Source: Rhodobacteraceae bacterium KLH11 (GTDB lineage Bacteria; Pseudomonadota; Alphaproteobacteria; Rhodobacterales; Rhodobacteraceae). From it: 64,000 bases of DNA. Within the stretch, counting starts at the first letter, position 1; the number at the start of each line of letters is the position of its first letter. The position numbers and the translations under genes are program-made. The DNA lies in the NCBI GenBank assembly GCA_000158135.1, contig DS999531.1, positions 2,026,051 through 2,090,050 of the forward strand. The letters are read 5' to 3'. This document shows positions 8,997 to 14,551 of the stretch, one piece after another. The notes beneath the pieces are model-generated. The model was not told the DNA's origin. It was given only the letters and a program-made list of their open reading frames with translations, and searched no databases.

Positions 8997-9030
8997 TCCG
9001 TTTTCGGATGAGCCCTGTGTGAGATGTATT

Positions 9031-9056
9031 AGCGCGCCCTTTTGGGCGCGCTTTTT
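9031..9056 (+). terminator. intrinsic terminator after suhB
   Basis: Perfect 9-base stem AGCGCGCCC/GGGCGCGCT with a TTTT loop and five T after the stem. It insulates suhB from the convergent bhcD. Confidence 0.9.
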
Positions 9057-9059
9057 GGT

Positions 9060-10025
9060 TTAGATGTCGACTTTGATGGCGATGCCTTGTTTGATTGCCA
9101 GGTCGACCACCGCGGATGCGACGGCGAGGTCTTGCAGGCCGACGCCGGTGCCGTCGAACAGGGTGACCTCATCGTCCGAGCTGCGGCCCGTATGGGTGCC
9201 GTTGATCACAGCGCCGATCTGGTGGATATCGGCCTCGGCCTTGGTGCCCGCTTTCACCGCGTGCTGGCTTTCGCCCAGGGTGATCGCCTGCGCCACCTCA
9301 TCGGTGAAGACACTGGCGCGGGTGATCAGGTCGGTGCCGACCTCCTGCTTGCCGATGGTGTCGGTGCCCATGCAGGCCACGTGGGTGCCGTCGGCGACAT
9401 GATCCGACAGCAGCGTCGGTGCAAAGGACGAGGTGATGGTGACGATCACATCTGCCTGTGTCATGCCCGGCAGCTCGACCGCCTCAAAAGGCAGGCCGGC
9501 CTCGGCGGCGACCTTCTCGATATTGGGCAGCATCTCGGGGTGCAGGTTCCAGCCGATGACTTTCTCAAACTCACGCTGCTCCAGTGCTGCGCGCAGCTGG
9601 AACGTGGCCTGATGGCCCGCGCCAACCATACCGATCACCCTGGCATCCTTGCGCGCCAGATGGTTGATCGACACCGAGGACGCCGCCGCCGTGCGCAGCG
9701 CGGTCAGCAGGTTGCCGCCCACCATGGCCGTCGGCATGCCGGTATCGGGATCAAACAGGAACACGGTCGACTGGTGGTTGATCAGCCCCCGCTTTTCCAG
9801 GTTATGCGGCCAATAGCCCCCGGCCTTCAGGCCCAGCACCTGCCCGGCCTTGTCAAAGCCGCCCTTGAAGCCATAAAGCGCGTCTTCATGGCCGATTGCC
9901 TCGCGCACAACAGGAAAGTTATAGGCATCCCCCGATGCCATCGCGGCAAACACCTGCTCGACCGCTTCATAGCTTTCCTTCCGGCCCAGCAGGGCGCCGA
10001 TTTCCTTCTCGGGAACGATGATCAT
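9060..10025 (-). CDS. bhcD: iminosuccinate reductase BhcD (ornithine cyclodeaminase/mu-crystallin family)
   Basis: 321 residues. Last enzyme of the beta-hydroxyaspartate cycle: it reduces iminosuccinate to L-aspartate with NADH, which the aminotransferase BhcA then uses. The Rossmann nucleotide-binding loop VIGMVGAGHQA (about 129-139) and the family segments GYWPHN, FDPDTGMPTAMVGGNLLTALRTAAAS and DGTGVGLQDLAVA are visible. By sequence alone it could be any ornithine cyclodeaminase-like reductase. Position as fourth gene of bhcA-B-C-D beside an IclR regulator decides the call. It is separated from bhcC by an 84-base gap with a terminator-like hairpin, so its level may differ from the other three. 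Confidence 0.88.
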   Translation of the reverse strand: MIIVPEKEIGALLGRKESYEAVEQVFAAMASGDAYNFPVVREAIGHEDALYGFKGGFDKAGQVLGLKAGGYWPHNLEKRGLINHQSTVFLFDPDTGMPTAMVGGNLLTALRTAAASSVSINHLARKDARVIGMVGAGHQATFQLRAALEQREFEKVIGWNLHPEMLPNIEKVAAEAGLPFEAVELPGMTQADVIVTITSSFAPTLLSDHVADGTHVACMGTDTIGKQEVGTDLITRASVFTDEVAQAITLGESQHAVKAGTKAEADIHQIGAVINGTHTGRSSDDEVTLFDGTGVGLQDLAVASAVVDLAIKQGIAIKVDI

Positions 10026-10058
10026 CGTCTCGTGCCTTTCAATCAGTTCAGCAGAACA

Positions 10059-10090
10059 TAAAAACGGGGCGGTCTGTTGCGCCGCCCCGG
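10059..10090 (-). terminator. intrinsic terminator/attenuator between bhcC and bhcD
   Basis: On the minus strand CGGGGCGG pairs with CCGCCCCG across a 9-base loop and is followed at once by five T. It lies inside the bhc gene row, downstream of the bhcC stop (10110) and upstream of the bhcD start (10025). It looks able to stop a share of transcripts before bhcD. Confidence 0.7.
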
Positions 10091-10109
10091 TTCTTTATTG
10101 TGGTGGATC

Positions 10110-11273
10110 TCAGTAGGCCTTGCCGCGCGCCGAAACCGGCCAGACGGTTTCAACCTTGCCGCCCCGCACGCCCACATACCAGTCATGGACATTGGCGGTC
10201 GGGTCGCAATGGCCCGGCACCAGACGCAGCTTTTCGTTCACCTTCAGCACGCCATCCGGGTCTGCGATCACGCCATGCTCGTCCGAGCATTTGACGTATT
10301 CCACATCATCACGGCCATAGATGAAGGGCAACCCGCTATCGACCGATTGCGCCTTGAGGCCCGCATCGCAAATCGCCTTGTCTGCCTTGGCGTGGCTCAT
10401 CACCGAGGTCAGGATGAAGAAAGCGTTCTCCCACTCGCCCTGGTCGATGCGCTTGCCATCCTTGTCCAGGATACGGCCGTAATCGGCGTCCATGAACGCA
10501 TACGATCCGCATTGCAGCTCGTTATACACGCCCGAGTTGGACTCGAAGTAATATGACCCGGTGCCACCACCCGAGACCAGCTCGGGCTCCAGATCAACAG
10601 CCTTGAGGCCCTGAACCGCGCTTTCGACCATGTCGATCGCCACGTCCAGCTTGGCCTTGCGGTCCTCATAGCTGTCCATGTGCTGCATCGCGCCCTGATA
10701 GGCCTGAATGCCCTTGAAGCTCAGGTTGTCAGCCGCATCCACCGCGCGGGCAATGGCAACCACATCCTGCGTGGTGGTCACGCCGCAACGGCCAGCGCCG
10801 CAATCGATCTCGACAAATACGCTCAGCTCGGTGCCGTGCTTGACAGCCGCCGCCGACAGATCGGCCACATTGTCCACATCGTCAACGCAGACGATGACAT
10901 GCGCACCCAGCTTGGGCAGGCGCGCCAGACGGTCGATCTTGGCCGGGTCACGCACCTGGTTCGAGACCAGAACATCCTTGATGCCACCACGGGCAAACAC
11001 TTCGGCCTCAGAGACCTTCTGGCAGCACACGCCAATCGCGCCGCCCAGCTTTTCCTGCAGCTTGGCCACATCAACCGATTTGTGCATCTTGCCATGCACC
11101 CGGTGACGCATCCCATGCGCCTTGGCATAATCGCCCATCTTGACGATGTTGCGCTCCAGCGCGTCCAGATCCAGCACCAGGCAGGGGGTCTGGATGTCGG
11201 CCTCATCCATACCCGGCAGCGCGGGCACGTCATAGCCAACTTCAAGATCTTCCAGATTTACAGGTTTGTTCAT
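10110..11273 (-). CDS. bhcC: beta-hydroxyaspartate aldolase BhcC (D-threonine aldolase-like)
   Basis: 387 residues from the ATG at 11273, which has GGAGAA six bases upstream; an in-frame ATG 33 bases further up lacks one. In the cycle it condenses glycine and glyoxylate to (2R,3S)-beta-hydroxyaspartate. It belongs to the alanine racemase-fold D-threonine aldolase family: TPCLVLDLDALERNI, the PLP lysine region HGKMHKS (about 60-66), SGGGTGSY for phosphate binding, and the metal-binding GHCDP near the C terminus. All fit a PLP and divalent-metal enzyme. It lies between bhcB (63 bases upstream) and bhcD. Confidence 0.9.
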   Translation of the reverse strand: MNKPVNLEDLEVGYDVPALPGMDEADIQTPCLVLDLDALERNIVKMGDYAKAHGMRHRVHGKMHKSVDVAKLQEKLGGAIGVCCQKVSEAEVFARGGIKDVLVSNQVRDPAKIDRLARLPKLGAHVIVCVDDVDNVADLSAAAVKHGTELSVFVEIDCGAGRCGVTTTQDVVAIARAVDAADNLSFKGIQAYQGAMQHMDSYEDRKAKLDVAIDMVESAVQGLKAVDLEPELVSGGGTGSYYFESNSGVYNELQCGSYAFMDADYGRILDKDGKRIDQGEWENAFFILTSVMSHAKADKAICDAGLKAQSVDSGLPFIYGRDDVEYVKCSDEHGVIADPDGVLKVNEKLRLVPGHCDPTANVHDWYVGVRGGKVETVWPVSARGKAY

Positions 11274-11336
11274 GGTTTTCTCCGGTCTAATGCACATCCG
11301 GGGCACCAGCCCTGCGGACGCGGTTGAGAGTTCAGG

Positions 11337-12302
11337 TTAAATCCAGGGCAGCTTGTCCAGATCCACATTGCCGCCGGTGATGATCACACCAACCCGCTTG
11401 CCCTTGAACACATCCGGGTTCTTCAGGATCGTGGCCAGCGGCACGGCAGAGGACGGCTCCATCACCACCCGCAGGTGCTTCCAGGTCAGCTTCATCGCGT
11501 CGATGATTTCCTGCTCCGAGGCGGTGAAGATATCCGTCACGTGGTTCGAGACGAAATGCCAGGTGTTTTCCTTCAGCGGCACCAGCAGCCCGTCGGCAAT
11601 GGTCTTGGGCGCGTCATCGGCAATGATGTGGCCTGCCTTGAAGCTGCGATAGGCATCGTCGGCCTGCTCGGGCTCGGCCGCGTAGATCGCAGTCTCGGGG
11701 GCCAGGTTCGATACCGTCAGGCAGGTGCCCGACACCATGCCGCCACCGCCGATGGGCGCGATCACCGCGTCCACACCATCGGTCTGTTCCAGCAGCTCGG
11801 CCGAACAGGTGGCCTGACCCGCAATCACCCGCGGATCATTATAGGGATGCACGAAATCGCCCCCGGTCTCGGCCTGCACCTTGGCAAAGGTCTCTTCCCG
11901 CGAACTGGTCGAGGGCTCACATTCCGTGATCACCCCGCCATAGCGGCGCACCGTGTCTTTCTTGGCCTGCGGCGCCGTGCGCGGCATCACCACATTGCAC
12001 GGAATGCCCCGCAGCATCGCCGCGTAGCTCAGACAGGACGCATGATTGCCCGAGGAATGCGTCGCCACACCCTTCGCCGCCTGCGCCTCATCCAGCCCAA
12101 ACACCGCATTCGCAGCCCCCCGCACCTTGAACGCACCGGGCTCCTGAAAGTTCTCACACTTGAAAAACAGCTCCGCACCCGTCAACTCATTCAGATAAGA
12201 CGAAACACGAACAGGCGTCCGACGCACATAAGGACGAATCAAATCATGCGCAGACCGCATGTCAGTGAGAGACAGATCGGTTGCAGACACGTGATCTAAC
12301 AT
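11337..12302 (-). CDS. bhcB: beta-hydroxyaspartate dehydratase BhcB
   Basis: 321 residues. PLP enzyme of the serine/threonine dehydratase fold that removes water from beta-hydroxyaspartate to give iminosuccinate. The PLP lysine is K59 in GAFKVRGA, the phosphate loop GGGG is at about 185-188, and SSGNHA is present. The start is uncertain between two adjacent ATGs (12305 and 12302); the second is chosen because AGGAGG then stands five bases away. That ribosome site overlaps the bhcA stop codon (TGAGGAGG), so bhcA and bhcB are probably coupled. Without the neighbours it would be called threonine dehydratase or serine racemase. Confidence 0.9.
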   Translation of the reverse strand: MLDHVSATDLSLTDMRSAHDLIRPYVRRTPVRVSSYLNELTGAELFFKCENFQEPGAFKVRGAANAVFGLDEAQAAKGVATHSSGNHASCLSYAAMLRGIPCNVVMPRTAPQAKKDTVRRYGGVITECEPSTSSREETFAKVQAETGGDFVHPYNDPRVIAGQATCSAELLEQTDGVDAVIAPIGGGGMVSGTCLTVSNLAPETAIYAAEPEQADDAYRSFKAGHIIADDAPKTIADGLLVPLKENTWHFVSNHVTDIFTASEQEIIDAMKLTWKHLRVVMEPSSAVPLATILKNPDVFKGKRVGVIITGGNVDLDKLPWI

Positions 12303-12312
12303 CATTGCCTCC

Positions 12313-13503
12313 TCAAGCTGCGGCTTTGGTGTGTTTGGACGAGCCGGTACGATAGAACTCCTGCGCCGCTGCAACGCCGCTGCCCAGTTCCACCGGATAG
12401 CTCAGGTCGGCCATGGCCATTTCGATCGTGGCGAGCCCCGACAGAACCATGACATCGGTCAGGCTGCCCAGATGCCCGATGCGGAAGGCTTTGCCATCCA
12501 TCTGGCCCAAACCGATACCAAAGGACACGCCATAGGCGTTGAACGCGTGATCGGTCAGTTCATTGCTGTCAAAGCCTTCGGGCACATAGACCGCGCTGAC
12601 CGTGTCGGAATAGAGGTCGGGAGACTGCGCAACCAGTTCCATCCCCCATGCACGGGTTGCACGGCGCACGCCTTCGGCCAGACGGGTGTGGCGAGCATAG
12701 ACATTGTCCAGACCCTCTTCGAACAACATCTTCAGGCTTTCACCCATGCCATAGATCAGCTGCAATGGCGGGGTATAGGGAAAGCCACCAGAGGCGTTGG
12801 CCGCCATCATGTCGCGGAAATCAAAGAAGGTACGCGGCAGTTTGGCGCTTTCCATCGCGGCCAGCGCCTTGGGGCTGACGCACAGGATTGCCATGCCAGT
12901 TGCCAGCATGAACCCCTTTTGCGACCCCGATACAGCAATATCAACACCCCACTGATCAAACTCGAACGGCATTGACGCAAGCGAGCTGACGCAATCCACA
13001 AACATCATCGCGGGATGGCTGGCCGCATCCATGGCACGCCGGACTGCGCCAATGTCAGAGCGCACGCCAGTTGCGGTTTCGTTATGGGTGACCAGAACAG
13101 CCTTGATCTGATGGGCCTTGTCGGCTGCAAGGATCTCTTCGAACTTGTCCGCAGGTGCGCCGGTTCCCCAGGGGCATTCGACGATCTGAACATCCAACCC
13201 GTGCCGTTCGCACAGGTCAATCCAGCGATGGCTGAACACGCCGTAACGCGCGACCAGAACCTTGTCGCCGGGGCTAAGCGTGTTGGTGATTGCGGCTTCC
13301 CATCCGCCGGTGCCGCTGGCGGGGAAAGTGACGATCTGACCATCGGTTGTTTTGAAGACTTTCTTCGTGTCCTCAAGCACCGGGGCAAAGGTTTCCACAA
13401 AATCCGGAGCGCGGTGATCCTGTGTCTGAACCTGCATGGCAAGCCGCAGACGATCAGGAATATTCGTTGGTCCCGGGATAAAGACGGGGTTTTGGTTCGA
13501 CAT
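12313..13503 (-). CDS. bhcA: aspartate-glyoxylate aminotransferase BhcA
   Basis: 396 residues, class V aminotransferase. It transfers the amino group of L-aspartate to glyoxylate, giving oxaloacetate (the cycle product) and glycine (the acceptor for BhcC). Visible are the FIPGPTNIP start, ASGTGGWEAA, the FVDCVSSLAS turn with the cofactor-binding aspartate, and the Schiff-base lysine K196 in SGSQKGFM. Sequence alone would suggest serine-glyoxylate aminotransferase; the bhcB, bhcC and bhcD genes immediately downstream point to the beta-hydroxyaspartate cycle. First gene of the operon, divergent from bhcR across a 202-base AT-rich region. Confidence 0.9.
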   Translation of the reverse strand: MSNQNPVFIPGPTNIPDRLRLAMQVQTQDHRAPDFVETFAPVLEDTKKVFKTTDGQIVTFPASGTGGWEAAITNTLSPGDKVLVARYGVFSHRWIDLCERHGLDVQIVECPWGTGAPADKFEEILAADKAHQIKAVLVTHNETATGVRSDIGAVRRAMDAASHPAMMFVDCVSSLASMPFEFDQWGVDIAVSGSQKGFMLATGMAILCVSPKALAAMESAKLPRTFFDFRDMMAANASGGFPYTPPLQLIYGMGESLKMLFEEGLDNVYARHTRLAEGVRRATRAWGMELVAQSPDLYSDTVSAVYVPEGFDSNELTDHAFNAYGVSFGIGLGQMDGKAFRIGHLGSLTDVMVLSGLATIEMAMADLSYPVELGSGVAAAQEFYRTGSSKHTKAAA

Positions 13504-13705
13504 CTCTCAATCCTCTCTTCCGGGTTCAAGCTTCGCCGGAATGAAGGTTTTCTGCAATTTTCTTGAAAAACGTTTTCATTTTTTTGGTTAAATATGTAAG
13601 ATGCTGAAAATAATGATAATTGAGTTTCTCAAATTCACTGGCGGAGAATCTTTGTTGGAAAAATATGATCCGGATCCGCCATGTTGACCAGAGGGTGATG
13701 TTAAA
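13504..13705. promoter_or_regulatory. bhcA/bhcR divergent control region with several dyads
   Basis: This gap is much richer in A and T than its surroundings. It contains TGAAAA-ACG-TTTTCA (13564-13578), TTGAG-TTT-CTCAA (13620-13632) and the perfect palindrome GATCCGGATC (13667-13676). The last sits inside a wider GGCGGA...TCCGCC inverted repeat (13640-13680). Any of these could be the BhcR operator. The dyads are observed; assignment to BhcR is inference. Confidence 0.5.
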
Positions 13706-14551
13706 ATGGACGCACAGAAACGGCCGCGTGGCAGGCCCAAGTCATTGTTCAAGGAAAGCTCGGCCGGGACCATGCAGTCGCTGGATCGGGCATTGGGTGT
13801 GTTGACCGCCGTTGCCCGGCTGGAGCGTTCTGCCCTCAGCGATCTGGCGCGCGAAGTTGAGGTGCCAACCGCCACGACGCACCGTATTCTGGTGACCCTG
13901 CAAAAGCATGGCTTTGTGATTTTCGACGAAGAGCGGCAGGAATGGATGATCGGGATCGAAGCCTATCGGACGGGGGCTTCGTTCCTGCATCGCAACAATG
14001 TGCTTGAGATCGGCAGGCCGATTCTGCGGCGTCTGATGCAGGACAGCGGCGAAACCGCCAATCTGGCGGTGCCGGACGGGGCAGAGGTTGTGTTTGTGGG
14101 GCAGGTCGAGACCCAGAACCCGATCCGTGCATTCTTCCCTCCGGGGGCGCGCACGCCCATGTATGCCTCGGGGACAGGCAAGGCGATACTGGCTGCCATG
14201 AGCGATGAGAGCCTGGGCAAAGCGCTGGGGGCGACCAAGCTGATTCCCTTCACTGAAAACACCTGTTTGCCGGGGTCAGGTTTGCAGCGGGATCTGGCCA
14301 AGACCCGTGCCCGCGGCTGGTCGCATGATCACGAGGAACGGTATGAAGGCATGTCCTGTATCGGTGCGGCGATCTTCAATGACAGGGGCGAACCTTGCGC
14401 GGGTATCTCTGTGTCCGGTCCGACAGTTCGGTTTTGCAGCACGCGCGCGCCCGAGCTGGCCGAGTTGGTGCTGACCGCCGCGCGGGAAATCACCCATCTG
14501 AGCGGTGGCAGAGCGCCAGAGCTATCTGCGCGGCACCCGGGGAATCCGTGA
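13706..14551 (+). CDS. bhcR: IclR-family regulator of the beta-hydroxyaspartate cycle, BhcR
   Basis: 281 residues. The N-terminal winged helix (about 24-85: TMQSLDRALGVLTAVARLERSALSDLAREVEVPTATTHRILVTL) is followed by an IclR effector domain ending with the CAGISVSGP region. In Paracoccus the homologous BhcR senses glyoxylate and activates bhcABCD; the same divergent layout is seen here. The first residues, KRPRGRPKS, match the core of an AT-hook minor-groove motif, an unusual addition in front of the HTH. The ATG at 13706 has GAGGG about ten bases upstream. Its 3' end overlaps the convergent rhomboid gene by 30 bases. Confidence 0.88.
   Translation: MDAQKRPRGRPKSLFKESSAGTMQSLDRALGVLTAVARLERSALSDLAREVEVPTATTHRILVTLQKHGFVIFDEERQEWMIGIEAYRTGASFLHRNNVLEIGRPILRRLMQDSGETANLAVPDGAEVVFVGQVETQNPIRAFFPPGARTPMYASGTGKAILAAMSDESLGKALGATKLIPFTENTCLPGSGLQRDLAKTRARGWSHDHEERYEGMSCIGAAIFNDRGEPCAGISVSGPTVRFCSTRAPELAELVLTAAREITHLSGGRAPELSARHPGNP

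Follow-up and report, generated by a model that had tools for sequence, protein, structure and literature searches.

The 64,000-nucleotide stretch analysed here, hereafter the window, is contig C6:2026051-2090050 of the Rhodobacteraceae bacterium KLH11 genome (G000), and its positions 9060-14551 hold a locus for the beta-hydroxyaspartate cycle (BHAC), three genes of which, bhcBCD, recur on contig C5 of the same genome. Five intact open reading frames (ORFs) are confirmed in the window locus. The regulatory gene bhcR (13706-14551, plus strand) is separated by a 202-bp intergenic region (13504-13705) from the divergent bhcA (12313-13503), which encodes L-aspartate:glyoxylate aminotransferase, and bhcA is followed, likewise on the minus strand, by bhcB (11337-12305; beta-hydroxyaspartate dehydratase), bhcC (10110-11273; 3-hydroxy-D-aspartate aldolase) and bhcD (9060-10025; iminosuccinate reductase). 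The four adjacent minus-strand enzymes and the divergent IclR regulator described in the initial annotation are thus all present, with the domains it named (Pfam Aminotran_5, PALP, Ala_racemase_N with D-ser_dehydrat, OCD_Mu_crystall and IclR). Both bhcB and bhcC start with ATG; the mechanical ORFs open at TTG 12374 and GTG 11306, respectively, and the ATG-initiated N terminus of BhcB resembles those of genus orthologues.

Identity, distribution and role of the window locus

All four enzymes reach the cut-offs of their curated NCBIfam families: BhcA scores 729.6 bits with NF045640 (cut-off 650), BhcB 569.1 with NF045641 (550), BhcC 766.9 with NF045642 (690) and BhcD 571.6 with NF045643 (500), BhcB and BhcC being scored with one additional N-terminal codon. 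The top solved relatives of BhcC and BhcD are a D-3-hydroxyaspartate aldolase (PDB 6qkb, 724.5 bits across the full length) and an iminosuccinate reductase (PDB 6rqa, 430.9 bits), both of which we take to be Paracoccus denitrificans enzymes, while PDB matches for BhcA, BhcB and BhcR are broader relatives only. One point weighs against a complete bhcRABCD set: BhcR scores 333.4 bits with NF045644, 17 bits under the cut-off of 350, although BhcR is its top-scoring family. Since the Pfam families are broad, one could read the genes as generic amino-acid enzymes (threonine dehydratase, D-threonine aldolase, ornithine cyclodeaminase and serine-glyoxylate aminotransferase) that are adjacent by chance, but the four equivalog cut-offs reached by BhcA-D contradict this at the sequence level, and an order common to P. 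denitrificans and most loci of the family leaves it a negligible probability.

The comparison with the P. denitrificans Bhc proteins proposed in the initial annotation, run against record L283, finds all five genes in the same order with a divergent bhcR, at identities of 65% for BhcA, 86% for BhcB, 81% for BhcC, 64% for BhcD and 44% for BhcR. The KLH11 system differs in its sub-threshold BhcR, in the extra bhcBCD copy without bhcA, and in a BhcA and BhcR of a diverged type, which share about 60% and 43% identity with the other type. Ruegeria pomeroyi DSS-3 has the same bhcRABCD order with annotated gene names (BhcA 61%, BhcB 86%, BhcC 86%, BhcD 69% and BhcR 41% identical to the window proteins), but its locus is megaplasmid-borne and has other neighbours. 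With BhcA-D over their cut-offs and the order shared with both species, the reading of the window genes as a complete BHAC locus is upheld.

Trees were made for BhcA, BhcC and BhcD, and the expectation that the proteins fall within Bhc clades is borne out for BhcA, which sits among operon BhcAs, with two distant paralogues of very long branch length standing apart; the BhcC and BhcD trees are less clear. The smallest well-supported set that includes the window BhcC comprises 10 operon proteins and one ungrouped protein, and lone BhcC-like proteins are scattered rather than forming one separate clade (four label changes in the tree). Because long and badly filled rows were flagged in the BhcC tree, some of them probably mistranslated, that tree is used only for the nearest rows of the window protein; the BhcD tree has no outgroup and weak support on 42 of its 95 inner branches.

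BhcC matches (E ≤ 1e-120) occur at 132 places in 127 of 248 sampled genomes of the family, and all 132 were inspected, namely the window, the C5 copy and 130 other stretches. The exact arrangement of bhcR divergent from bhcABCD is found in 91 of them, the window counted in, and chance adjacency is thus no issue. bhcB, bhcC and bhcD occur together in 105 loci, 98 of which also have bhcA; four of the others carry a dadA-like gene before bhcB in place of bhcA, and three end at contig edges. The remaining 27 lack, or are cut before, at least one of bhcB, bhcC and bhcD, with BhcC alone in 21. Within the genus, BhcD matches (E ≤ 1e-80) are found in 50 of 54 genomes. Among 14 genus loci inspected in 12 genomes, mostly best matches, 10 share the window neighbourhood, which consists of a MetR-like LysR gene, an inositol-monophosphatase-like gene, bhcDCBA, bhcR and a rhomboid gene; bhc loci of another type, located elsewhere, make up the remaining four. 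BhcR is 80-87% identical in nine of the 10 syntenic loci and broken in the tenth. Vertical inheritance is therefore the simplest explanation for the window operon.

The BHAC converts two molecules of glyoxylate to oxaloacetate without loss of carbon. By analogy with P. denitrificans, BhcA would transfer the amino group of aspartate to glyoxylate, yielding glycine and oxaloacetate; BhcC would join this glycine to a second glyoxylate to give 3-hydroxyaspartate; BhcB would dehydrate the latter to iminosuccinate; and BhcD would reduce iminosuccinate to aspartate, which re-enters the cycle. BhcR would switch the operon on when glyoxylate appears, and the intergenic region is its putative site of action, on the model of BhcR control in P. 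denitrificans (PMC11323563). We are highly confident that the window genes form a working BHAC operon inherited by vertical descent; its family membership, gene order and synteny are shown by the sequence comparisons, and its chemistry and regulation are those known from P. denitrificans, carried over by analogy. This supports the earlier reading of the locus, and on its own it is a known kind of system. The accompanying proposal that the organism uses glycolate or glyoxylate is plausible and a fair inference, because GlcE is over its cut-off (287.2 bits against 284) and adjoins a GlcD-like gene; this second gene, however, is under both GlcD cut-offs (444.8 against 567.9 and 528.6 against 897), and to that extent speaks against the proposal.

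Several smaller features accompany the locus. A GC-rich hairpin at 9032-9051, with its T-tract toward the plus-strand side, lies between the convergent bhcD and inositol-monophosphatase-like genes, and a similar GC-rich palindrome is found 3' of bhcD in aligned genus orthologues. Two types of BhcA and BhcR exist in the genus, 60-61% and 43-45% identical between types (window 12313-14551 compared with L189-L191 and L193), and in those loci BhcB and BhcC remain 84-89% identical, hinting at mosaic operons. One genome (G254) has a syntenic locus that looks broken, bhcR and bhcA being split and bhcC absent (L194), as well as a complete second bhc locus of another type (L193). In addition, L036 and most of L135-L164 encode BhcC-like aldolases, 52-76% identical to the window BhcC, that have no recognised bhc neighbours in their genomes of the family.

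A second bhcBCD copy behind dadA on contig C5

The less ordinary part of the system lies outside the window. bhcD has two 100% matches in the genome, and a 3.25-kb segment carrying bhcB (minus its first codons), bhcC and bhcD at window 9020-12269 recurs at C5:386456-389706 with 99.3% identity, behind a dadA-like gene. The copies differ by 21 substitutions and one indel in 3251 columns, and all 18 coding differences (nine in bhcB, three in bhcC and six in bhcD) are silent, suggesting selection on both copies. The near-identity of the two copies might point to an assembly artefact, but the C5 copy lies inside a 708,450-base contig, its flanks are unrelated on both sides, and substitutions and an indel separate it from its counterpart; we consider an artefact very improbable and reject it.

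The C5 genes form a dadA-bhcB-bhcC-bhcD operon at C5:385188-389662 (L017:10189-14666), in which the stop codon of dadA overlaps the start of bhcB as TGATG. The gene order is LysR, dadA, bhcB, bhcC, bhcD, a convergent M20 amidohydrolase gene, a GbdR-like AraC regulator, a DapA-like gene and a 4-hydroxyproline epimerase gene, the last three of which (L017:15991-19055) are perhaps a separate hydroxyproline locus. The C5 proteins reach the same cut-offs (BhcB 573.4 against 550, BhcC 766.9 against 690, BhcD 571.6 against 500). Neither bhcA nor bhcR was found in the C5 operon; the only copies in the genome are those of the window, the next BhcA match being 34% and the next BhcR match 30% identical.

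We infer from sequence comparison that the C5 bhcBCD genes were copied from the chromosomal locus, because the chromosomal synteny is conserved in the genus and the chromosomal bhcB has an orthologue-like N terminus: its start, MLDHVSATDLSLTDM, resembles those of the five genus orthologues, out of eight, that were compared, such as MLDQIPVADLTIEDM. Transfer in the opposite direction is rejected on the same two grounds. The C5 BhcB opens with MTIPT, unlike these orthologues, and then runs into chromosomal sequence; BhcB of Tropicibacter alexandrii likewise opens with MTIPT. This shared start and the TGATG overlap seen in other dadA-bhcB loci suggest that C5 once held its own dadA-bhcBCD, the body of which was overwritten by chromosomal genes, a history that we hold loosely as its basis is a handful of codons. 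Two results weigh against this account: the 21 substituted sites give no direction, genus orthologues matching neither copy consistently, and the BhcD tree does not unite the window/C5 pair with other dadA-linked copies.

dadA-bhcBCD and benzoate genes in other genomes

A dadA-like gene precedes bhcBCD in three further loci of the family, intact in L028, with a stop in dadA in L030, and with dadA partly recognised in L034. C5 DadA matches occur in 28 of 248 family genomes (E ≤ 1e-120). No plasmid record covers 80% of the C5 dadA-bhcBCD stretch (0 of 126) or of the corresponding L201 stretch (0 of 37).

Searched with the L028 DadA, the named genomes yield 272 relatives, of which the best 80 loci were examined. 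In nine of these 80, bhcB follows dadA, and bhcA was seen in none of the 80 within the stretches examined, some of them short. The nine belong to Primorskyibacter aestuariivivens, an Ahrensia metagenome-assembled genome (MAG), Ruegeria marina, Roseovarius gaetbuli, Roseobacter sp. MED193, Nioella ostreopsis, Thetidibacter halocola (a bhcB fragment only), Tropicibacter alexandrii (stop in bhcB) and Mesobacterium pallidum (stop in dadA); the Primorskyibacter and Mesobacterium loci are very probably L028 and L030 and are not additional to the family count. The TGATG overlap joins dadA and bhcB in eight of the nine, and genes for M20, MarR, a cycloisomerase and BenABC lie alongside in six. Ten more loci have M20, MarR, dadA and benABC without bhc genes, as do two others minus only a recognised M20. 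Since dadA-benABC clusters exist with and without bhc genes, a single cluster seems either to have gained bhcBCD by insertion or to have lost it. In L028, BenA, BenB, BenC and muconate cycloisomerase are over curated cut-offs, and the M20 protein is over a broad amidohydrolase model only; outside L028 the ben-cluster genes take their names from their resemblance to the L028 ones. BhcB, BhcC and BhcD of L197 and L201 are also over their cut-offs.

Judging from its gene content, the M20-dadA-bhcBCD-benABC cluster probably serves the catabolism of hippurate (benzoylglycine). The M20 amidohydrolase would split hippurate into benzoate and glycine, and the benzoate would be used through benABC. The form with TRAP (tripartite ATP-independent periplasmic) genes, TRAP/M20-MarR-dadA-bhcBCD-catB-benABC, is seen in the Roseobacter-group loci L195, L197, L198, L201, L202 and L210; in L210 no TRAP gene was seen, and M20 runs past the contig end.

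The substrate of DadA and a proposed glycine route

If DadA, a flavin adenine dinucleotide (FAD) enzyme, oxidised glycine to glyoxylate, BhcC would be supplied with both of its substrates, and BhcC, BhcB and BhcD could convert glycine plus glyoxylate to aspartate. On this basis dadA-bhcBCD would assimilate glycine. The full proposal is that dadA-bhcBCD is a distinct, bhcA-independent glycine branch that turns two glycine into L-aspartate without loss of CO2, that it is plugged into hippurate catabolism in marine Roseobacter relatives, and that in KLH11 the body of bhcBCD was overwritten by chromosomal genes; taken as a whole, we give it an even chance.

Glycine oxidases are the closest solved relatives of DadA in both sequence and fold. 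A model of the hippurate-type DadA of L195, rather than of the C5 protein (predicted local distance difference test score, pLDDT, 80.5), has the glycine oxidase 4ysh as its top Foldseek match (E 3.6e-22; about 21% identity). Several results weigh on the other side. Sarcosine oxidase 7exs follows closely (E 2.1e-20), as do dimethylglycine oxidases, and the fold therefore leaves the substrate unfixed. C5 DadA is over the D-amino acid dehydrogenase model PRK12409 (647.9 against 494) and under the cut-off of the glycine oxidase ThiO model TIGR02352 (129.5 against 250.8), and of four plasmid relatives examined, one is near alanine racemase and one beside a RidA gene.

DadA might accordingly act on a D-amino acid unrelated to glycine, such as D-alanine, with its place before bhcB being incidental or serving the use of environmental 3-hydroxyaspartate, as the name of its family model and the alanine racemase and RidA neighbours would suit. 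However, the TGATG junction in eight of nine named loci, mostly beside M20 amidohydrolase and benABC genes, and the glycine oxidases as nearest solved relatives (sarcosine and dimethylglycine oxidases scoring nearly as well) argue otherwise, as does an Agrobacterium plasmid relative that adjoins glycine C-acetyltransferase and threonine dehydrogenase genes; the neighbours of the remaining plasmid relative give no hint of a substrate. We regard this explanation as unlikely.

A slightly better, though still doubtful, alternative is that the C5 operon simply adds a further dose of the ordinary cycle under different regulation: DadA would make glyoxylate from an amino acid, and the chromosomal BhcA would close the cycle. 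The single BhcA of the genome would remain available for this, and BhcA (E ≤ 1e-100) is also present in five of the nine dadA-bhcB genomes. At the same threshold it was not found in the other four, Roseobacter sp. MED193 among them, whose assemblies may be incomplete; in two of these (L196, a MAG, and L201) dadA-bhcBCD is free of internal stops, which weighs against this alternative.

The glycine branch as proposed for the relatives is less easily extended to KLH11 itself. No good BenA is found in its genome, where the top match is 27% identical (E 1.4e-20), and this places the C5 operon outside any L028-like benzoate cluster. C5 DadA is only 57-59% identical to cluster-type DadA, and it is rare: within the genus it is found in the source genome alone (1 of 54 at E ≤ 1e-60), and class-wide again only there (1 of 385 at E ≤ 1e-162, at most four candidates scored per genome shown). 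Owing to this divergence, the missing BenA and the rarity of DadA in the genus, the hippurate reading is not directly transferable to C5, whose feed we can only guess to be glycine, or glycine from another conjugate.

A limited search of titles and abstract openings found no literature linking bhcBCD to glycine oxidation or hippurate, and as far as such limited searches show, the bhcA-less, dadA-linked form is undescribed. If DadA does oxidise glycine, the annotation "D-amino acid dehydrogenase" masks a route by which these bacteria could turn glycine into a C4 acid while conserving carbon, and a natural two-glycine-to-C4 route would exist alongside glycine cleavage. The bhcA-less operon suggests that bhcBCD is a portable module, one that can be coupled to any source of glyoxylate and glycine. 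Whole bhcRABCD-type loci on two plasmids, from Marinovum and Leisingera (L281 and L282), also have allantoin/ureidoglycolate genes and a urea channel around them, a gene context suggesting purine-derived glyoxylate as another feed.

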